A stretch of 39,164 bases of DNA from a virus. The DNA lies in the IMG/VR virus record IMGVR_UViG_3300036651_000587, positions 1-39,164 of that record. One strand, given 5' to 3'. The position numbers were made by a program, and so were the translations under genes. The notes under the pieces are model-generated. The model had not been told where the DNA came from. It did not search any database and worked only from the letters and a program-made list of their open reading frames with translations. Numbering within the stretch: the stretch's first letter is position 1; each line of letters starts with the position of its first letter. Shown here piece by piece: positions 7,052 through 35,425 of this stretch.

Positions 7052-7413
7052 TGGGACTTAACGCGGGCCGCCTCCGTCATCGCGTGCAGCTACAGCAATC
7101 AGTTCCTATAATTGATAGCAATGGCGATGCCGAGCAAAACCAAGAGACTGGCGAAGTTGTCTTGTATTGGCAAGAAGTCGCCGAAGTCTGGGCAGCAATT
7201 GAACCCATCAGCGGACGCGAATTTATCCAGTCTGCCGCGATCCAATCCAAGATTACAGCGCGCATCATCATCCGCTATCGCTCCGACATTAACGCCGCCA
7301 TGCGTGCAATCCATAACGGAAAAATCTACAACATCGAGGCTGTTCTACCTGACCCTGATTCAGGTTTGGAATGGCTGACTCTCCCCTGCTCAGAAGGCGT
7401 AAACAATGGATAG
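7051..7413 (+). CDS. Head-tail adaptor / head closure protein
   Basis: 120 residues. It resembles the Phage_H_T_join (SPP1 gp16/HK97 gp7-like) family: an N-terminal MGLNAGRLRHRVQLQQ strand, VWAAIEPISGREFIQSAAIQ, and the IRYRSDINAAMRAIHNGKIYNIEAV core. It closes the head after packaging. ATG at 7051 (TGATG overlap with the previous stop) is preferred to a GTG three bases upstream. Normally the tail-completion gene follows directly; here a seven-gene cargo block intervenes. Confidence 0.85.
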   Translation: MGLNAGRLRHRVQLQQSVPIIDSNGDAEQNQETGEVVLYWQEVAEVWAAIEPISGREFIQSAAIQSKITARIIIRYRSDINAAMRAIHNGKIYNIEAVLPDPDSGLEWLTLPCSEGVNNG

Positions 7414-8386
7414 CATTCTCATTACCGGCGCTGCTGGCTTCATAGGCCATCATCTTGTTGATGTGATTTTGAAAGAGACAGATTGGCAAGTAACGGTAAT
7501 TGACGGGCTAGATTGTTCAGGAAACCTTAACCGACTAGCCGAAATCGGGGCTGTCAACAACTCTCGCGTTAAGTTCATTTATCACGACCTACGTTCGCCG
7601 ATCAATGAACTATTGGCCGCTCAGATTGGCCCACAAAACTACATCGCCCATTTGGCTGCTGGCACTCATGTAGACCGCAGCATTGATAAGCCCATGGAAT
7701 TTGTTCTGGATAACGTAGTTGCCACTTGCAACATTCTGGAATTCGCTCGACAGGCCAATTCGAAGTTTCTTTATTTCAGCACTGATGAAGTATTCGGCCC
7801 AGCACCCGAAGGCGTGAACTATAAAGAAGATGCACGCTACAACTGTGGTAATCCTTACGCTGCTACCAAGGCGGGTGGCGAGGAATTGGCGGTTGCGTAT
7901 GCCAACACTTACGGTCTAAAGGTTTGCATAACCCACACGATGAACTGCATCGGCCCGCGTCAGCACCCTGAGAAATTCCTACCGATGACTATTGCAAAGG
8001 TCATGGCTGGTAAACAAGTTTTGATTCACAGCAATAAAGACCGCACCAAAGCAGGCTCTCGGTTTTACATTCATGCCGAGGACGTGGCGCAGGCTGTTTT
8101 GGTTCTGTTCAAAGCGGGAGCTACAGGTAAATACAATATCGTCGGTGAGCGTGAGCTAGACAATCTCCAACTTGCTGAGTGGGTCGCGCTGGCCTGCAAG
8201 AAAGACTTGGATGCCGAACTAGTGGACTTCCACTCAAGCCGACCCGGCCATGATCTGCGCTATGCCCTTGACGGTTCCAAGATGCTTCAAGAGTTCGGCT
8301 GGAAGCCATCCCGAACGATTGACCGCGCTATTGCCGAAACAGTGGAGTGGAGTTTGGCTAATCCTCAGTGGCTGCTTAAAGCGTGA
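7406..8386 (+). CDS. NAD-dependent sugar dehydratase/epimerase (RmlB-like)
   Basis: 326 residues, extended short-chain dehydrogenase fold. The Rossmann motif GAAGFIG is at 8-14. The active-site triad region STDEVFG (125-131, with T126-D127-E128) and Y151-x3-K155 (NPYAATK) match dTDP-glucose 4,6-dehydratases, where Asp-Glu does the dehydration chemistry. The likely reaction is nucleotide-sugar 4,6-dehydration supplying an activated deoxysugar. The exact substrate cannot be read. It is the first gene of the cargo block and overlaps the head-closure gene by 8 bases, so it is co-transcribed with virion genes. Confidence 0.88.
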   Translation: MDSILITGAAGFIGHHLVDVILKETDWQVTVIDGLDCSGNLNRLAEIGAVNNSRVKFIYHDLRSPINELLAAQIGPQNYIAHLAAGTHVDRSIDKPMEFVLDNVVATCNILEFARQANSKFLYFSTDEVFGPAPEGVNYKEDARYNCGNPYAATKAGGEELAVAYANTYGLKVCITHTMNCIGPRQHPEKFLPMTIAKVMAGKQVLIHSNKDRTKAGSRFYIHAEDVAQAVLVLFKAGATGKYNIVGERELDNLQLAEWVALACKKDLDAELVDFHSSRPGHDLRYALDGSKMLQEFGWKPSRTIDRAIAETVEWSLANPQWLLKA

Positions 8387-8901
8387 CAACTTGGGCAATT
8401 CTCGCTACCGGCCCAAGTATGTCGCAGGCTGTAGCAGATAAAGTAAAAGGCCGCGTTAAGACGGTTTCGGTAAGCGATGCTTATAAGCTGGCTCCGTGGG
8501 CTGATATTTTGGTATCAACCGATGGCAGATGGTGGAAGCATCACCCAGAAGCTGTAGAACTCCCGAAACCCAAGTTCTCAGCCACACATCATTGGAATGC
8601 TGTTCACGGTGTTGAGTCGTGCTTAGAGATGGGGACACATGTAAACAGCGGGCTTCTCGCCTGCCACATCGCCATTAAATATGGGGCTACTAAACTCCTA
8701 TTGCTGGGATTCGACTTTCGGCCCGGGCATTTCTTTGGCGATCATCCGGAGCCCCTTAAAAACACCACCACCGCAAGATATGAGGTTTTCCAAAAGCAGT
8801 TCGAGGGATTCAATCCTTTTGGCGTAGAGATAGTCAATTGCACCCCATATTCTGGCCTCAGAGCCTACACAATGAAAGACCTAGATGCGTGCTTGGCTTA
8901 G
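8383..8901 (+). CDS. MAF/DUF115-like glycosyltransferase-related protein
   Basis: 172 residues, GTG start overlapping the previous stop. The pattern ATGPSM (8-13), SDA, VSTDGRWW, then VNSGLLACHIAIKYGATKLLLLGFDF (about 88-113) is that of the MAF_flag10/DUF115 (MptE-like) family. That family includes motility-associated transferases that attach nonulosonic acids to protein, and a group of uncharacterised phage proteins. Biochemical function here is inferred, not shown. It sits between a sugar dehydratase and capsule-type transferases, which supports a role in glycan making. Confidence 0.65.
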   Translation: MTTWAILATGPSMSQAVADKVKGRVKTVSVSDAYKLAPWADILVSTDGRWWKHHPEAVELPKPKFSATHHWNAVHGVESCLEMGTHVNSGLLACHIAIKYGATKLLLLGFDFRPGHFFGDHPEPLKNTTTARYEVFQKQFEGFNPFGVEIVNCTPYSGLRAYTMKDLDACLA

Positions 8902-9601
8902 TCTGCGGCATCCTGATTCCGCGCGTGCGCGTGCGTTTCACACTGGGCTGGCGCGGCTGGGCTACACCATTGCCAGCGGAACTACGACGAACCCTGGCCC
9001 GAAAGATATTCTGGTTAGCTGGAATATCCTCAGAGATGGCGTCGGTGCTTCCGAGGCTTTTAAAGCTAGAGGATTGCCGGTCATCGTGACCGAAAACGCA
9101 TTGTGGGGCAACGATTTCATGGGCGGTGACTGGCTGACAATCGCCAAAGACTCGCATAACCTCGCTGGTAATTTCCCAGTCGGAGATTCTGAGCGCTGGG
9201 ATAAATTAGGCGCTCGACTAAAGCCAATCCGTGACGAGGAAGATACGGTAATCTTGCCACAGCGCGGCATCGGACAACCTCCGGTGGCTATGCCCAGAGG
9301 GTGGGCTGAATCAGCCTTGGAGCGCTATGGTGGCAGGGTTCGTCTGCACCCTGGAAAGCGTGAGACTATCCCGCTGGAGCAAGACCTTCACTTTGCGGGT
9401 CGCGTAATTACTTGGGGAAGTGGCGCAGCGGTTAAGGCTTTGATGTGGGGTATTCCCGTAATCTCAGAGCTTCCCAATTGGGTGGCTGAACAGGACAACA
9501 CCGATGCGGGGAGGCTGGCTATGTTGCGCCGACTTGCTTGGTGTACTTGGACGCTGGAAGAAATCGCAACTGGCGAACCATTTAAAAGGCTGCTTACATG
9601 A
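8885..9601 (+). CDS. Putative GT-B glycosyltransferase, capsule-synthesis type
   Basis: 238 residues. The C-terminal half has a donor-site pattern seen in KpsC/LpsZ-like and other GT-B proteins: VILPQRGIGQ, RLHPGKRE, then TWGSGAAVKALMWGIPVISE (about 176-195). The short N-terminal half is divergent. Overlaps both neighbours (17 and 4 bases). The donor and acceptor are unknown. A similar layout appears in the gene at 10988, so the block may hold two related transferases. Confidence 0.6.
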   Translation: MRAWLSLRHPDSARARAFHTGLARLGYTIASGTTTNPGPKDILVSWNILRDGVGASEAFKARGLPVIVTENALWGNDFMGGDWLTIAKDSHNLAGNFPVGDSERWDKLGARLKPIRDEEDTVILPQRGIGQPPVAMPRGWAESALERYGGRVRLHPGKRETIPLEQDLHFAGRVITWGSGAAVKALMWGIPVISELPNWVAEQDNTDAGRLAMLRRLAWCTWTLEEIATGEPFKRLLT

Positions 9602-10449
9602 AACTCCTTTTCACTGGCAAGGGCGGCAAGTCTGGAAGCTGGCAGATACGAGCCCGCGAGGTAGGCGAAGCATTGGGCGCTACAGTCAAGGCGCACTCTA
9701 CTCTTGAGGAATGCCAGGCTGCCGATGTTATCGTTGTAGTGAAGCGGATAACTCCGCAGCTTCTGGCAAACATCCGAGCCAGCGGCCGGCCATGGGTGTT
9801 CGATACCGTCGATTTTTTCCCACAGCCCGACTGCACCGTCTGGAGCCGAGAGCAGACCATTGAATGGGTGCGCGGCCGGCTGGATTTCATGCAGCCCACG
9901 GGCGTGGTTTTTGCCAATCAGCGCATGCAGCAGGACATCGGTTGGGCCGGGCCGCAAACCGCGATATATCACCATCACCGGCCGGGCATTCGTATAAACC
10001 CTATACGCGAGAAAATCCAGACAATTGGCTATGAAGGCGCGCCCCAGTTCATTGAAGGCTGGGAAGCGGCCATCGGAGAAGCATGCGCCGACCTTGGCTG
10101 TGCCTTCACGGTCAACCCGCGCGAACTGGCGGATTTGGATGTGGTGCTGGCGCTGCGCGGGCCGCGGCATAACGGATACGCGCAGCAGCATTTTAAAAGT
10201 AACATTAAATTGGCAAACGCTCATGCAAGTGGCACGCCGTTTATTGGAATGCCAGAGGATGGTTATGAAGAAACTCGAACAGGTGTTGAGTACTGGGTAA
10301 AGCGGCCGGCTGATCTATTGCCAGCATTGCGATGGCTTGAGTCCCAGTCCGCACGCGAACAAATAAGCGAAAGATTTCTTCAGGCCGCATATCCGGTTGA
10401 CAAGGCCGCCACTAGTTTGCGTGCATTTTTAGAAACTTTAGCCCGCTAA
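9598..10449 (+). CDS. Putative glycosyltransferase (GT-B-like)
   Basis: 283 residues. It starts MKLLFTGKGGKSGSWQIR, a typical opening Rossmann strand and Gly-rich loop. The C-terminal half (NIKLANAHASGTPFIGMPEDGYEE, about 202-225) looks like a nucleotide-sugar binding region of GT-B enzymes. No catalytic residue can be assigned with confidence. ATG start, coupled to the upstream transferase. Local composition is rich in GGCCGG tetrads compared with the structural genes, hinting at a different origin. Confidence 0.55.
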   Translation: MKLLFTGKGGKSGSWQIRAREVGEALGATVKAHSTLEECQAADVIVVVKRITPQLLANIRASGRPWVFDTVDFFPQPDCTVWSREQTIEWVRGRLDFMQPTGVVFANQRMQQDIGWAGPQTAIYHHHRPGIRINPIREKIQTIGYEGAPQFIEGWEAAIGEACADLGCAFTVNPRELADLDVVLALRGPRHNGYAQQHFKSNIKLANAHASGTPFIGMPEDGYEETRTGVEYWVKRPADLLPALRWLESQSAREQISERFLQAAYPVDKAATSLRAFLETLAR

Positions 10450-10479
10450 TGGAAAGTTCTTGCAATTTGAAATTGGAAA

Positions 10480-10998
10480 ATGCAAAATACTTCCATGACA
10501 ACCGCAAACAGAATTCGAGAACTTCTTAATTACGACTCTGCAACTGGTGGTTTCACGTGGAAAATTTCACCTTGCCGGTTTATTAAAGCTGGAAATGTTG
10601 CTGGTCACGTAAGCCCAGAAGGTTACATCGTGATCGGCATTGATTACAAAGTATTGAAGGCTCATCGTTTGGCGTGGCTGCATTTTCATGGAGAACTCCC
10701 AACCGGTTTGGATATTGATCACATCAATGGACAGCGAGGGGATAACCGCATTGAAAACTTGAGACTATGTACTGTTTCTCAGAATTCCCAAAATCTGCAG
10801 CGCGCTTATCGAAACAACAAAAGCAGCGGCATTTTGGGCGTTTATTGGCATAGTCAGGCAAAAAAGTGGCAGGCCAAAATTCAACTGGACGGCCGGCCAA
10901 AATCTTTAGGCCTTTACCTCACCAAAGACGAGGCGGCTGCCGCATACGCCAAGGCTAAGCGTGCCATGCATCCGTTCGCCTCTGCTTATGCAAGTTGA
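10480..10998 (+). CDS. Free-standing HNH homing endonuclease with AP2 domain
   Basis: 172 residues. An HNH_3 domain is recognisable: HRLAWLHFHGELP (about 64-76), LDIDHINGQRGDNRIENLRL (about 81-100, with D-H, N and the second N of the ββα-metal fold). A C-terminal AP2-type DNA-binding domain follows (SSGILGVYWHSQAKKWQAKI, about 115-134). Such genes are selfish elements that cleave phage DNA lacking them. It lies inside the glycosylation block, overlaps the next gene by 11 bases, and has a weak ribosome site and AT-richer sequence than its neighbours, all signs of later insertion. ATG 10495 is an alternative start. Confidence 0.88.
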   Translation: MQNTSMTTANRIRELLNYDSATGGFTWKISPCRFIKAGNVAGHVSPEGYIVIGIDYKVLKAHRLAWLHFHGELPTGLDIDHINGQRGDNRIENLRLCTVSQNSQNLQRAYRNNKSSGILGVYWHSQAKKWQAKIQLDGRPKSLGLYLTKDEAAAAYAKAKRAMHPFASAYAS

Positions 10999-11773
10999 AA
11001 TCCTGAGCGGCATAGACCCATCTATTACAGCCGCGCGATGGCTGAGGGCTATTGAAATAGCCATTGCTCAGTCGGGAGATAGCCCGACTAGGACGGCAAG
11101 CTATCTGGGCGGCTCGCAGGTGCTGGTGTTGTTCGGTGTCGGCGCTCCGGTCCATGACCAAGCCCGAAAAAAGCATATCGAGGCGGGTGGGCGCGTGGTT
11201 CACTTTGACATGGGATACTTTGGCGATCGCAAGAGTTATGTTCGCCTTTGCATAGACGCCGATCACCCTCAAGACCTGCTAGACAATGGCCCGCACGATT
11301 CTGGCCGGTGGGACGCGCACGGGATTGAATTGCGGGAGGACGCCAACCCATCCGGCACAATCCTGCTTATCGGTCTTGGCAAGAAATCCCGCGCTTATCT
11401 TGGGCTGAGGCATTGGGAGGCCAAGACGCTTGCACGGTTGGAGGCAGAATACCCGGACCGCCAAATAATCTACAGGCCAAAAGGGCGTGACGATTTAAAT
11501 CTAGGCATCCATGCTGACCCAACAACGCCAATAGCTGAATTGCTACTGGGCGCTTCCATGGTGGTATGTCGCCATTCAAACGTAGCAGTTGATGCCGCTA
11601 TTGCGGGAGTTCCGTTTACAGCGGAAAATGGCGCGGCGATGTGGCTATTGGGTCGGGAATTCACCCGACAGAATCGGCTAAAGTTCTTAAGCCGTCTGGC
11701 TCATTGGCAGTACAAAACAACCGAAGCGCCCGAGGCATGGGCGTTTGCTAAAAGGATGATTTCATGCGGCTAA
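10988..11773 (+). CDS. Putative capsule-type glycosyltransferase (GT-B-like)
   Basis: 261 residues from ATG 10988. An upstream in-frame ATG at 10961 would add nine residues overlapping the HNH gene and looks less natural. Features are LLIGLGKKSRAYLGL, IIYRPKGRDD, and GASMVVCRHSNVAVDAAIAGVPF (about 205-227), a pattern shared with capsule-polysaccharide transferases and many phage proteins of unknown role. It overlaps the methyltransferase that follows by 10 bases. The substrate is unknown. Confidence 0.6.
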   Translation: MQVEILSGIDPSITAARWLRAIEIAIAQSGDSPTRTASYLGGSQVLVLFGVGAPVHDQARKKHIEAGGRVVHFDMGYFGDRKSYVRLCIDADHPQDLLDNGPHDSGRWDAHGIELREDANPSGTILLIGLGKKSRAYLGLRHWEAKTLARLEAEYPDRQIIYRPKGRDDLNLGIHADPTTPIAELLLGASMVVCRHSNVAVDAAIAGVPFTAENGAAMWLLGREFTRQNRLKFLSRLAHWQYKTTEAPEAWAFAKRMISCG

Positions 11774-12261
11774 ACATTGGTGCAGGAAACAAGCGGCTAG
11801 AAGGCTATACAGGCGTTGACGCGGTTGAGCGCCCAGCCGCCGACATTGTTGCGCCTGCTTGGGCCATCCCTTTGCCTGATGGAGTAGCAGATGAAATCTT
11901 GGCCGTCCATTTGTGGGAGCATTTCTACCGTTGGCAGTGCGATGACGTTATCAAAGAATGGCATCGTTTGTTAAAACCTGGGGCCGATCTGTGCCTTGAG
12001 CTTCCCGATATTTGGAAGTGCTGCGAAAACCTGATTAGCGGCGTTCGCGGCAAGCATCCCGACCAGTTGAGCATGTGGGGACTCTATGGCGACCCGAGAG
12101 ACGGCGACGAATTTATGTCGCATAAATGGGGGTGGACTGCTGCAACTTTGATTGAGTACCTTAACGCCAATGGCTTTGAAGGCGCGCGAGAAGTGCCGAC
12201 GCGCTTCCATCGGGCAGGCGCTCAGCTTCGGGATATGCGGATAGAGGCCCGCCGTGCTTAA
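11764..12261 (+). CDS. SAM-dependent methyltransferase (class I)
   Basis: 165 residues. Motif I LNIGAGNK (3-10) and acidic D19 of YTGVDA bind S-adenosylmethionine. HLWEHFYRW (49-57) and a post-motif KPGADLCLELP (71-81) match Methyltransf_11-type small-molecule methyltransferases. It is embedded among transferases, so methylation of a sugar is the most likely role, as in O-methylated surface glycans. No DNA or rRNA methyltransferase motif is visible. Confidence 0.75.
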   Translation: MRLNIGAGNKRLEGYTGVDAVERPAADIVAPAWAIPLPDGVADEILAVHLWEHFYRWQCDDVIKEWHRLLKPGADLCLELPDIWKCCENLISGVRGKHPDQLSMWGLYGDPRDGDEFMSHKWGWTAATLIEYLNANGFEGAREVPTRFHRAGAQLRDMRIEARRA

Positions 12262-12922
12262 GTTGTTCTGCGGGTATGAATCCCGAGAGAGCGCCGGTTT
12301 CCACACGTTTGTTCACAGCGTATTAAGTCGAGCCTCCAAGCCAGTTAGCATAATCCCATTGGCCCGCATGGGGCTTCCGGCTGGGTCAAATGCTTTCACG
12401 CTCTCCCGCTTCCTTGTCCCAATGCTTTGCGGCTACGAGGGCCGCGCAATCTTCGCTGACGCCTCTGACATGCTCATGCTTGGTGACATTGCCGAACTGG
12501 ATGCGCTCTACGACCATGACAAGGCATTGCAGGTTGTCCAACATCCCGATTACGTCAGCCTCCACCCGCGCAAATACATCGGGACAGAGATGGAATGCGA
12601 CCAGACGAATTACGTCAGAAAGAATCAGGCATCGCTGATGATCTTTAACTGCGCCCATCGTGCATGGCGTGGGCTGGACTTCCAGAGCATCGAGCAAGCA
12701 AAGCCGCTGGACCTCCTCCAGTTCGCAGAGCTGCATGATTCCGAGATTGGCGCGCTCCCCCCTGAGTGGAATGTCCTGATTGATGAAGGGCAAGACGACG
12801 CCAATGCAAAGCTGATTCATTTCACGGCAGGCGTGCCTTGGTTCAAGCATTACCAAAACGCTCGACGGTCTAAAGACTGGTTTGAAGAGTACGAGGCAAT
12901 GAGCGGGATTCGTCATGGCTGA
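12254..12922 (+). CDS. GT8-like (GT-A) glycosyltransferase
   Basis: 222 residues, GTG start overlapping the previous stop. The run SRFLVPMLCGYEGRAIF then ADASDMLMLGDIAEL (about 51-82) matches the family 8 pattern in which a DxD-type motif (here DAS-D) binds the metal-nucleotide. KLIHFTAGVPWF (about 191-202) corresponds to the conserved C-terminal His region. It is the last gene of the cargo and overlaps the tail completion gene by 8 bases. Confidence 0.7.
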   Translation: MLKLFCGYESRESAGFHTFVHSVLSRASKPVSIIPLARMGLPAGSNAFTLSRFLVPMLCGYEGRAIFADASDMLMLGDIAELDALYDHDKALQVVQHPDYVSLHPRKYIGTEMECDQTNYVRKNQASLMIFNCAHRAWRGLDFQSIEQAKPLDLLQFAELHDSEIGALPPEWNVLIDEGQDDANAKLIHFTAGVPWFKHYQNARRSKDWFEEYEAMSGIRHG

Positions 12923-32402: not shown

Positions 32403-32427
32403 CTCATAGCGCCAGATGGTGTGCAAT
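32399..32427 (+). promoter_or_regulatory. Sigma70-like promoter before gene-free region
   Basis: TTGACT (32399-32404), a 17-base spacer, and TGCAAT (32422-32427), matching the sigma70 consensus at 5 of 6 and 4 of 6 positions. A transcript would begin near 32434, at the start of the structured gene-free stretch. It lies at the end of a gene and is not needed to express the tightly coupled genes before it, so it most likely drives the downstream element. Confidence 0.6.
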
Positions 32428-32433
32428 ATACAT

Positions 32434-32850
32434 ATCTGCGGATTGGTAACCCGTGGTAGTCAGCGAACGACGAGCCGTAACCCTTTTCAGGAGAGCGGGC
32501 TTGTTATGCCAAAGGACACTGGGTCGCTCCATGTCTCTAGGCGGTCACCAGCCCTAGCCCGTTCCCTTGAGAAGGGTTTGTCGCTTGTGACCTCAAAAAC
32601 TGTATCCCCACCCGTACTCCACACGTCAGCAGTGGGCCTGCATGGGCCGCTTGGAGTAAAACACCGGCAGCGGAACACCCCCGCAACCAGCCGACCGGCC
32701 TTTTTGTCAGGGACCGAACAATACTCGCGCATAACGGTGGAAACAGGCGCTTGTAGATTGAATGACAGCCTCAAGGGACTCTGGTCAGCAATGATGGGAG
32801 AGGGCAGGAATCGTAGGGATTCCACCCTTGTAGGAACTATGGCTTAACAG
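32434..32850 (+). ncRNA. Candidate structured non-coding RNA (about 0.4 kb)
   Basis: This is the only long gap in a gene-dense phage (461 bases, 32403-32863). Nested inverted repeats cover most of it: 32494-32501 with 32556-32563 (8 bp, one G-U); 32514-32522 with 32529-32536; 32543-32548 with 32587-32592 (perfect GGTCAC, crossing the first, so a possible pseudoknot); 32564-32568 with 32572-32576; 32616-32621 with 32652-32657 enclosing two inner stems; 32665-32673 with 32681-32693; 32705-32709 with 32763-32767; 32801-32812 with 32818-32828 (10 bp with a small bulge). Frames across it look like chance openings rich in Ser, Thr, Arg. No match to tRNA, tmRNA, 6S, RNase P or group I intron landmarks was seen. 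A replication origin is the main alternative. The 3' end is uncertain. Confidence 0.55.
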
Positions 32851-32863
32851 AAATGGGGAACAA

Positions 32864-33250
32864 ATGAATGACGCTAAACGAGGTAAGTTGGCCTATGCGC
32901 TGACTAAACGGATGGTGATCGATATGCCGTCTGCGAGGGCTTTGGTTGATGATGCGGTCAACGACTCGGATGGCTGTCCGCATGGGTTTCGCTTTATCGT
33001 AAATGACTGCCTGAGATGCGGCGCTCCGATTTGTTGTGGTCGGTGTTGTTCTGAGGACGCACTTCTAGAAGGTGAGGCGACCGACGATATGGTCTATGCA
33101 TACCTTGAGGCGAATACAGCCTATTGGGAGCAGACTGACAAAATCCCCACACCACCAGGAAGGTGGAGAACCGGAACACCCAAAGAGGCAACAAAGGCGG
33201 GATTGCGTGCGGTGCTAGAACTGTTAAAGCGGAAAGAAGAAAATGACTGA
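32864..33250 (+). CDS. Hypothetical Cys-rich protein
   Basis: 128 residues. A Cys cluster CPHGFRFIVNDCLRCGAPICC then GRCC (about 38-62) suggests a small zinc-binding unit. The C-terminus is helical. GGGGA precedes the ATG. It is the first gene after the candidate RNA. Function unknown. Confidence 0.65.
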   Translation: MNDAKRGKLAYALTKRMVIDMPSARALVDDAVNDSDGCPHGFRFIVNDCLRCGAPICCGRCCSEDALLEGEATDDMVYAYLEANTAYWEQTDKIPTPPGRWRTGTPKEATKAGLRAVLELLKRKEEND

Positions 33251-33653
33251 TTACGAAGTAACCAATCTTACGGCGGTAACCTGCCTTCTTTGCAATGGCG
33301 CTGGACACAAAACGGCACACCTGAGAGTAGGAGAATCAGACTTTGAAGAACATGATGTTGATTGCCCGGTTTGCAGTGGTTCCGGTATGGTTCATCGAAA
33401 TCTTCAGGCATACATTCATGCGCTGGAAAAACGGAATCACGCGCTTAGTCAAGAGGCTCATGATTGGTGGACCATGGCGCATGAACTTAACAAAAAAAAG
33501 GCGGCATGTCTGCTTCCTGAAAATATCGAAAAGTTGGTGTTGGAAGAATTCAGTAGCCGGGGCGATCATGAAGCGCAGGGTTTAGACGCTTATTGGAAGG
33601 CGGCGTTTAAAGATGGCGCTAACTTTATGGCGAAAGAGTTCGGCTGTGTTTGA
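33243..33653 (+). CDS. DnaJ-type zinc-finger protein
   Basis: 136 residues. Two CxxCxGxG motifs (CLLCNGAG about 16-23; CPVCSGSG about 43-50) form one DnaJ-like zinc-binding unit without a J domain. The rest is helical. Such stand-alone zinc knuckles are common in phages and may support protein interactions; the specific role is unknown. Overlaps the truncated gene that follows by 8 bases. Confidence 0.7.
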   Translation: MTDYEVTNLTAVTCLLCNGAGHKTAHLRVGESDFEEHDVDCPVCSGSGMVHRNLQAYIHALEKRNHALSQEAHDWWTMAHELNKKKAACLLPENIEKLVLEEFSSRGDHEAQGLDAYWKAAFKDGANFMAKEFGCV

Positions 33654-33786
33654 TCTCTTCGGCGACACCATAACCACGCCATCCCCATCAACAACCCGTA
33701 TGCCAAGCGTAATCAACCTTTCGCACGGCTTCATAGATTGGTGGCTGGCATATCCTAGAAACAGCCGCAAGGTGGCAACATGTTGA
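33646..33786 (+). pseudogene. Truncated copy of the replication-domain gene, cut by HNH
   Basis: 46 codons, GTG start. It reads MFDLFGDTITTP, then HGFIDWWLAYPRNSRKVAT before an early stop. The intact gene at 34238 reads MLDLFGDTNTSP, then FGFSEWWKAWPAGPRKVAK and continues for 140 residues. The copy therefore breaks at the conserved RKVA point, exactly where the HNH gene begins (its ATG at 33780 overlaps). It is best read as the 5' stub of the original gene left upstream of the inserted endonuclease. Confidence 0.75.
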
Positions 33787-34244
33787 CGCGTGAAAGCATT
33801 GGTTTATTGGTTAGATATGAGCCCGAGTCCGGTAAGTTTTTTTGGCTTGTAAATCGTGGTTCTCGCGCTAGGGTTGGAAATGAAGCCGGATGGGATAGGG
33901 CTGATGGGTATCGGCAGATTCGCATTGAAAACAAAATTTACTATGCGCATCGTCTTGCGTGGCTATCAGTGCATGACGTTTGGCCGGAACTTGTTGACCA
34001 TATAAATAGAAATCCTGCTGACAACAGAATTATCAATCTTAGATTGGCCAATAAGAGCATCAATGCGATAAACAGCTATGCCTCAACCAAAAATACCTCT
34101 GGTTTTAAAGGCGTTTCTTGGTCTAAAGGGATGAAAAAATGGCGCATGAGCCATCAAGCATCGGGCGTGCTAAGCCGAATGTATTTCGATGATGCGGCCA
34201 CTGCTGGAGCGGCATATTTAAAGATCGTGGAGGCCAAATGCTAG
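33780..34244 (+). CDS. HNH homing endonuclease with AP2-like domain
   Basis: 154 residues. The HNH_3 pattern is HRLAWLSVHDVWP (about 59-71), LVDHINRNPADNRIINLRL (about 73-91), with a C-terminal AP2-like part (TSGFKGVSWSKGMKKWRM). AT-richer than its neighbours. It sits between the 5' stub and the intact copy of the same gene, overlapping both. It is related in architecture, but only distantly, to the enzyme at 10480. Confidence 0.88.
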   Translation: MLTRESIGLLVRYEPESGKFFWLVNRGSRARVGNEAGWDRADGYRQIRIENKIYYAHRLAWLSVHDVWPELVDHINRNPADNRIINLRLANKSINAINSYASTKNTSGFKGVSWSKGMKKWRMSHQASGVLSRMYFDDAATAGAAYLKIVEAKC

Positions 34245-34660
34245 ATTTGTTCGGCGATACCAATACTTCCCCCTATATTCCGTCAAGTCGAAAATCAAGC
34301 CGTCTTTTAAATAGTGCTTTTGGATTTTCGGAGTGGTGGAAGGCGTGGCCCGCAGGCCCCCGCAAAGTAGCCAAGCAACAAGCTCTCGACAAATGGGCGC
34401 GCTTCGAGTGCGCAACCAGCGCAACACTGATCTTGCAGCACACCGAATGGATGAAAACTCAGCCAGATTGGCTCAAGGACAACGGAGCATTCATCTGCGC
34501 GCCGCTTGTTTACTTGAACCAGCAACGGTGGGCCGACTGGCAACCAGAGCCCGAACGCCCCAAAAAACAGGGCGAATTAGAGCGCATAAAAGCCCACATA
34601 GGCGCACCAATGCCAGATTCAATCAAAGCGCTCAGGGCGCGTATTAGGGGAGTAACGTGA
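34238..34660 (+). CDS. Phage replication-type domain protein (WxxWPxxxRKVAK)
   Basis: 140 residues. WWKAWPAGPRKVAKQQALDKW (about 31-51), then WLKDNGAFICAPLVYLNQQRWADW (about 84-107), is the pattern found at the C-terminus of many phage replication/primosome-type proteins. Here it stands alone. No helicase, primase or polymerase gene is visible, so this may be the main link to host replication. It overlaps the methyltransferase start by 4 bases. Confidence 0.65.
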   Translation: MLDLFGDTNTSPYIPSSRKSSRLLNSAFGFSEWWKAWPAGPRKVAKQQALDKWARFECATSATLILQHTEWMKTQPDWLKDNGAFICAPLVYLNQQRWADWQPEPERPKKQGELERIKAHIGAPMPDSIKALRARIRGVT

Positions 34661-35421
34661 ATGGCCTGGACAATCAGCAACTCCCTGATGAGGGATTACG
34701 AGAACTCCACCTCTTCGCTGGCGCGGGTGGCGGGATACTCGCAGGCCAACTTAACGGAAACACGTGTGTTTGTGCCGTCGAACGAGAGCCCTACGCCCAA
34801 GCCGTCCTTGTGGCACGACAAAACGATGGGACGTTTCCCCCTTTCCCGATTTGGGATGATGTGCGCACCTTTGACGGAAAGCCATGGCGCGGAATTGTTG
34901 ACGTGGTTTCTGGCGGCTTCCCTTGTACAGACATCAGCTCAGCCAGGACAAACAGCGCAGTTAACGGAGAACAAAAAGGCCTCGACGGAGAAAATAGCGG
35001 GCTCTGGACTGAGCAAGCGAGAATCATTCGTGAAGTGGAGCCCATCGAGGTACAAGTGGAAAACTCCCCAAATCTCACTATTCGGGGACTTGAGCGAGTC
35101 TTGTGGGACCTGGCCGAGATGGGGTTCAATGCTAAATGGGGAGTGTTATCAGGAGAAGCCGTTAACGCCCCTCATGAGCGGGAACGGATGTGGCTTGTGG
35201 CTACCCACCCCGACCGCGCACAACGCAAAAGAGGGGAATTATCCAGCCGAAAGAACCAGGAATACGCCGACCTTGGCCGCTGTACTTGGTGGAAAGATAA
35301 ACCCGGAATTCACGGAGTGGATGATGGGGTGGCCCATCGGACACACCGACTTAAAGCCATCGGGAACGGCCAAATCCCATTGGTTGCGGCAACAGCATGG
35401 CGAATGCTCGGGGGCGAATGA
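34657..35421 (+). CDS. dcm: DNA (cytosine-5) methyltransferase
   Basis: 254 residues, GTG start. Motif I LHLFAGAGGG (18-27), motif IV GGFPC with catalytic Cys90, motif VI ENSP (135-138), motif VIII HERERMWLV (173-181) and motif X GNGQIP (236-241) are all present, so a full C5-methyltransferase is encoded. The usual PCQ is PCT here (Thr91). It would methylate phage DNA against host restriction. A second open frame of equal length lies over it, see the next entry. Confidence 0.9.
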   Translation: MNGLDNQQLPDEGLRELHLFAGAGGGILAGQLNGNTCVCAVEREPYAQAVLVARQNDGTFPPFPIWDDVRTFDGKPWRGIVDVVSGGFPCTDISSARTNSAVNGEQKGLDGENSGLWTEQARIIREVEPIEVQVENSPNLTIRGLERVLWDLAEMGFNAKWGVLSGEAVNAPHERERMWLVATHPDRAQRKRGELSSRKNQEYADLGRCTWWKDKPGIHGVDDGVAHRTHRLKAIGNGQIPLVAATAWRMLGGE

Positions 35422-35425
35422 ATGA
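34661..35425 (+). CDS. Overprinted phage protein in +1 frame of dcm
   Basis: 254 residues, ATG start four bases after the dcm start and stop four bases after its stop. It is not a random frame. It matches a known phage protein pattern, often annotated near or as DNA methylase: SRFGMMCAPLT (62-72), AELLTWFLAASLVQTS (77-92), ISLFGDL then TWPRWGSMLNG (138-160), LPTPTAHNAK (181-190), INPEFTEWMMGWPIGHTDL (213-231). The stop is ATGA-coupled to the next small gene, as expected if translated. Function is unknown; it is probably linked to the methyltransferase. Confidence 0.75.
   Translation: MAWTISNSLMRDYENSTSSLARVAGYSQANLTETRVFVPSNESPTPKPSLWHDKTMGRFPLSRFGMMCAPLTESHGAELLTWFLAASLVQTSAQPGQTAQLTENKKASTEKIAGSGLSKRESFVKWSPSRYKWKTPQISLFGDLSESCGTWPRWGSMLNGECYQEKPLTPLMSGNGCGLWLPTPTAHNAKEGNYPAERTRNTPTLAAVLGGKINPEFTEWMMGWPIGHTDLKPSGTAKSHWLRQQHGECSGANE

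Follow-up and report, generated by a model that had tools for sequence, protein, structure and literature searches.

A freestanding HNH endonuclease gene between a putative 5' relic of one allele and a complete second allele of a putative phage replication gene

The window, by which we mean the whole stretch of DNA that was analysed, consists of 39,164 nt of virus DNA in one metagenome-derived contig (IMG/VR record IMGVR_UViG_3300036651_000587). The locus described here contains the following features:

33243..33653, plus strand: upstream gene for a 136-aa protein that has CxxC motifs and is weakly DnaJ-zinc-finger-like; its stop overlaps the GTG of the stub
33646..33786, plus strand: the stub, a putative 5' relic (46 codons) of one replication-gene allele, ending RKVA-T-C-stop
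33766..33777, plus strand: RKVA codons of the stub, CGCAAGGTGGCA, the last bases homologous to relatives (sequence; alignment with L003 and L019)
33780..34244, plus strand: gene for a freestanding HNH endonuclease, 154 aa, with HNH_3 and an AP2-like C-terminal part and a shortened tail (PF13392, phrog_99, family alignment)
34227..34241, plus strand: final codons of the HNH gene, gtggaggccaaatgc, with GGAGG (sequence)
34238..34660, plus strand: intact second allele, 140 aa, resembling the C-terminal part of replication-initiation/primosomal proteins (phrog_9474, phrog_270, phrog_9327)
34657..35421, plus strand: C5-methyltransferase gene (PF00145, E 4.7e-25); its start overlaps the stop of the intact gene

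Reading of the sequence indicates that starts and stops overlap along this entire chain of genes, from the upstream gene to the methyltransferase gene. The stub frame opens with GTG at 33646, not with ATG, and has 46 codons and a stop at 33784-33786 (translation MFDLFGDTITTPSPSTTRMPSVINLSHGFIDWWLAYPRNSRKVATC). The HNH ORF spans ATG 33780 to TAG 34244, and ATG 34238 and TGA 34660 delimit the intact gene; the HNH start codon is located inside the last codons of the stub (acATGTTGA) and its stop codon inside the start of the intact gene (ATGCTAG). The RKVA codons of the broken gene hold AAGGTGG, 4 bases ahead of the HNH ATG, a Shine-Dalgarno-like sequence that may supply the HNH ribosome-binding site. 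Likewise, the GGAGG in the last HNH codons is likely to be the ribosome-binding site of the intact gene. These junctions bear on the idea that the contig is an assembly chimera in which two phage strains were joined at the HNH gene. The record is a single one derived from a metagenome, which speaks for such a join; however, coding sequences overlap tightly at both junctions and suitable ribosome-binding sequences are present, an arrangement that would be rare in a random join, and we regard a chimera as very improbable.

Neither the locus region nor 24 kb of the window had a match among phages in megablast. Among the viral contigs searched, the upstream gene (33243-33653) has no close relative and 32864-33250 has partial ones only. 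By eye, a stretch at 32416-32850 (gagggcaggaa...tccacccttg...ggaact.tggct) resembles one upstream of the same replication gene in contigs L019 and L017; it had no match in Rfam.

The intact 140-aa protein matches phrog_9474 (E 3e-12) and also phrog_270 and phrog_9327. The C-terminal part of these three families is matched by all five aligned members of the small family to which the protein belongs, and the N-terminal domain of the phrog families is absent in all five. On this basis the product of the intact gene is predicted to be a small protein related to the C-terminal part of phage replication-initiation/primosomal proteins. The protein is 63% identical to its counterpart in L003 (contig 3300015050_000778) and 64% identical to that in L004 (tblastn). 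The close IMG/VR relatives have 133-142 aa and a common M-x-DLFGD start, which indicates that the intact gene is full length and that the stub is truly truncated.

The original prediction, made from the DNA sequence, was that the 5' end of a gene is present twice around the HNH gene, and this was confirmed. When the intact protein was searched against the window's own record, the stub matched its residues 2-46 with 48% identity (E 3.2e-9), and the local alignment of the stub with the intact gene scored 113, compared to a best score of 48 in 2,000 shuffles. The same prediction had the stub ending exactly at RKVA, where the HNH gene begins. This is correct for the homology of the stub to relatives, which stops at the RKVA codons (about 33777), 2 bases before the HNH ATG, but not for the reading frame, which continues past RKVA with T, C and then a stop and has the HNH ATG inside its end. 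The stub sequence and the alignment of the relatives agree that the HNH gene is located at a site where a gene was cut off at its RKVA codons. The locus retains nothing of the stub gene beyond RKVA, and so the arrangement is not a simple insertion. The empty-site relatives described below are diverged (63% aa), and therefore the exact base at which each junction lies cannot be given.

The stub displays a closer relationship to another contig than to its neighbor. It has 70% amino acid and 75% nucleotide identity with the L003 gene, but only 48% and 55% with the intact gene 450 bases away, and a tree built from the N-terminal codons places it with L003 (bootstrap support of 92 with nucleotides and 78 with amino acids). 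Between stub and L003, dN is 0.21 and dS is 0.72; therefore, the stretch that they have in common evolved as coding sequence, a result that is silent on the time since truncation. Judging from these comparisons, the two 5' ends represent two lineages and are not duplicates of each other, which is why recombination with a relative, as originally proposed, is needed to explain the locus. The 45-codon 5' end retained in the stub would be a non-functional relic that may still aid translation of the HNH gene.

Several scans of IMG/VR with different patterns, the last one using a motif near the opposite terminus of the protein, provided eight relatives of the replication gene. Each of them has one uninterrupted copy of the gene in the record searched, several of these records being fragments, and no HNH gene at the site; hence they represent the empty sites that had been expected in relatives without the HNH gene. 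Scans of genome contigs for the replication gene found no relative. An old tandem duplication, with one copy later truncated by the HNH gene, would also place two 5' ends in succession, and HNH-free relatives with both copies would have pointed to it. However, all eight relatives are single-copy in the record searched, of which several are fragmentary, and the stub resembles the intact gene less than it resembles L003. We consider such a duplication quite improbable.

It was also originally suggested that the second 5' end alone restored the interrupted gene: the HNH gene and a foreign 5' end would have inserted at RKVA, and the foreign end would continue in frame into the 3' end of the resident gene. 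This would exactly mirror the mobile ORFs of fungal mitochondria, which provide a precedent (PMC3630166). The core of the intact gene (residues 46-101), which is 82% and 80% identical to L003 and L004, respectively, while its N-terminus is 61% and 60% identical, might be read in favor of such a fusion. However, the N-terminus of the replication gene is variable in all of the pairs compared, and by nucleotides the N-terminus of the intact gene is also nearest to L003. Furthermore, a maximum chi-square scan of the intact gene, a weak test with only seven diverged relatives, found no breakpoint at or near residue 45 (RKVA); the best breaks fall in the variable tail, with p values, uncorrected for multiple testing, of 0.015 to 0.9. 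With no 3' half of the stub gene at the locus and a whole allele downstream, this part of the prediction was not upheld, and a fusion at RKVA appears improbable.

The HNH protein matches PF13392 (HNH_3; E 1.3e-11, 44.4 bits against a curated cut-off of 24.8) and phrog_99 (E 4.6e-50); it has no sequence match in the PDB. In the family alignment its catalytic motif (AHRLAW, VDHIN, DNR) is unbroken, as is the AP2-like region (GVSW...KW...YF..A.A), which aligns with T5 hegE, KpV52 and others. The protein ends in IVEAKC, without the last ~8 residues of its relatives, and the sequence of its tail also differs from theirs. The gene has a GC content of 45%, compared to 54% for the window, which is consistent with a newcomer.

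Relatives of this HNH protein occur in thousands of phage records, and the nearest HNH proteins are ~50% identical. The freestanding phage HNN-AP2 homing endonucleases (phrog_99), including T5 hegE/F-TflV and those of Klebsiella phage KpV52 and Xanthomonas phages Xp10 and Xop411, have the same domain plan, an intergenic position and overlaps with neighboring genes. They differ from the window in the flanking genes: at 30 other loci of the family, taken from phage records, IMG/VR contigs and the window's own second HNH gene, none has a truncated upstream copy of the downstream gene, only short matches that are at chance level or of low complexity, whereas the window gives E 7e-12 in the same test. 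That second gene (10480-10998, 39% identity) lies between genes at 9598-10449 and 10961-11773, with no repeated flanking gene. Elsewhere, Acinetobacter phage Abp1 (L061, 761-3495) has two parts annotated as DNA polymerase, with one HNH gene between them and two further HNH genes on their flanks. In contig L017 a related HNH gene is present ~500 bases downstream of the replication gene. The IMG/VR scans found no second contig with an HNH gene at the same site.

Our preferred explanation, to which we assign a probability of about 0.58, is that the HNN-AP2-type freestanding HNH gene marks a junction at which a complete second allele of the replication gene took the place of the first, and that the 5' end of the first allele was left as a relic. 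The following observations lead to this reading: the stub is nearer to L003 than to its neighbor, relatives have empty sites, the HNH gene is intact, the junctions overlap, the HNH gene has a deviating GC content and there is published precedent. In T4-like phages, freestanding homing nucleases cut genomes that do not have them, and the repair copies the nuclease gene and its flanks from the donor (PMC2988022). Such intronless homing (SegF/gene 56, MobE, the split nrdA of Aeh1) resembles the window in having a freestanding nuclease at a gene interruption or allele replacement (PMC2988022). Likewise, nuclease genes are found at boundaries of allele exchange in ICP1 and its relatives (PMC10448857); the window would also have a nuclease gene at the border of an exchanged allele, but its border would lie within one gene, with a 5' relic left behind.

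The steps could have been as follows. A resident L003-like allele, now the stub, would have been broken at or near the conserved RKVA codons, presumably by the HNH endonuclease. Repair or recombination with another phage would then have brought in the HNH gene and a complete, diverged allele, if the transfer went in this direction. All of the resident allele downstream of RKVA would have been lost and its 45-codon 5' end would have stayed, with the AAGGTGG of the relic's RKVA codons serving the HNH gene and the GGAGG of the HNH 3' end serving the intact allele. Thus, we infer that the locus is the scar of a nuclease-associated allele replacement, in which cutting by the HNH protein at RKVA and homing, as opposed to illegitimate recombination, are plausible components. 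An allele swap associated with a nuclease gene is a known kind of event; the leftover 5' relic is unusual. Several points stand against an allele replacement: no donor was found, the nearest HNH being ~50% identical, the relatives are diverged, the layout is known from one contig and it occurs in none of the 30 other loci.

The simplest reading of two 5' ends from two lineages is that either the whole second allele came in, or the HNH gene and the stub came in. In the latter case the intact gene would be the resident one; the HNH gene would have split an L003-like gene earlier in another phage and subsequently moved, together with its left flank (the stub), to a position before the resident gene. 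The same anatomy would result, co-conversion of flanks is normal in homing (PMC2988022) and the upstream gene (33243-33653) has no near relative that could tell the native side. However, this would require a donor whose replication gene is split and perhaps defective, and the scans turned up no contig of this kind. We consider it unlikely, though the most probable of the rival readings. Nor did the scans find a donor in which this HNH gene adjoins an RKVA allele.

The closest published parallel is provided by the mobile ORFs of fungal mitochondria, in which endonuclease ORFs bring in the C-terminal end of a gene from a foreign source, while the native one persists as a relic and resembles relatives more closely than the working copy does (PMC3630166). 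As in Allomyces atp6 and Glomus atp6, atp9, cox2 and nad3, an endonuclease gene is located between what would be the native and foreign versions of a gene (PMC3630166), and by its identities and its place in the tree the stub is likewise closer to relatives than the working copy. However, in the fungal cases the C-terminus is exchanged and an in-frame fusion hybrid results (PMC3630166), whereas the window has an N-terminal relic and no detected fusion point, which would make it an N-terminal mirror image. In addition, the fungal nucleases are of the LAGLIDADG and GIY-YIG types and that of the window is an HNH. Among phages, the split genes Aeh1 nrdA and T4 mobA have kept both halves (PMC2988022). 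The two nrdA halves work together (PMC2988022), while the window has no 3' half of the stub gene and carries a whole second allele after the HNH gene.

A more specific and rather unlikely variant is that the HNH gene and a resistant allele, or the 5' end of such an allele, form a cassette and move together: the HNH protein would cleave the conserved RKVA site in the replication gene of other phages, and the cassette would supply a working replacement in the same event. If so, the window would provide the phage N-terminal counterpart of the fungal mobile ORFs. If the allele replacement is correct, the locus would be a snapshot of a freestanding nuclease gene entering a gene that the phage needs, whose function is kept through a full replacement allele, and the relic would date and place the event. 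It would also link intronless homing in phages to the exchange of gene ends in fungal mitochondria. If the locus is merely an ordinary recombination scar, it would be one more nuclease gene that marks a boundary of phage exchange.

The probability that the HNH gene resides inside a self-splicing intron or a similar element, and that splicing connects the stub with the gene downstream, is close to nil. An in-frame junction between the RKVA of the stub and the KQQ of the intact gene would be feasible, but there is no Rfam intron match at E up to 1, and the entire interval is coding, which leaves no room for an intron core; on these two grounds a group I or group II intron was rejected.

Two other regions of the window display patterns of their own. 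A second ORF of 254 codons (34661-35425; phrog_1008, E 9e-21) lies in the +1 frame of the C5-methyltransferase gene (34657-35421) and starts 4 bases later. Both frames of the methyltransferase gene are open over 199-304 codons in six other phage records (L071-L076), in which the second frame is 32-57% identical to that of the window, and after shuffling of synonymous codons the second frame stays open over an equal length in 0-2.7% of the shuffles for each gene. From its sequence the overlap looks like conserved dual coding; a literature search on dual coding in methyltransferase genes found no paper. Finally, the region at 7406-12922 has a cluster of genes whose translations, judged by eye, look like those of epimerase/glycosyltransferase-type genes, and the cluster is apparently located among head-tail genes.
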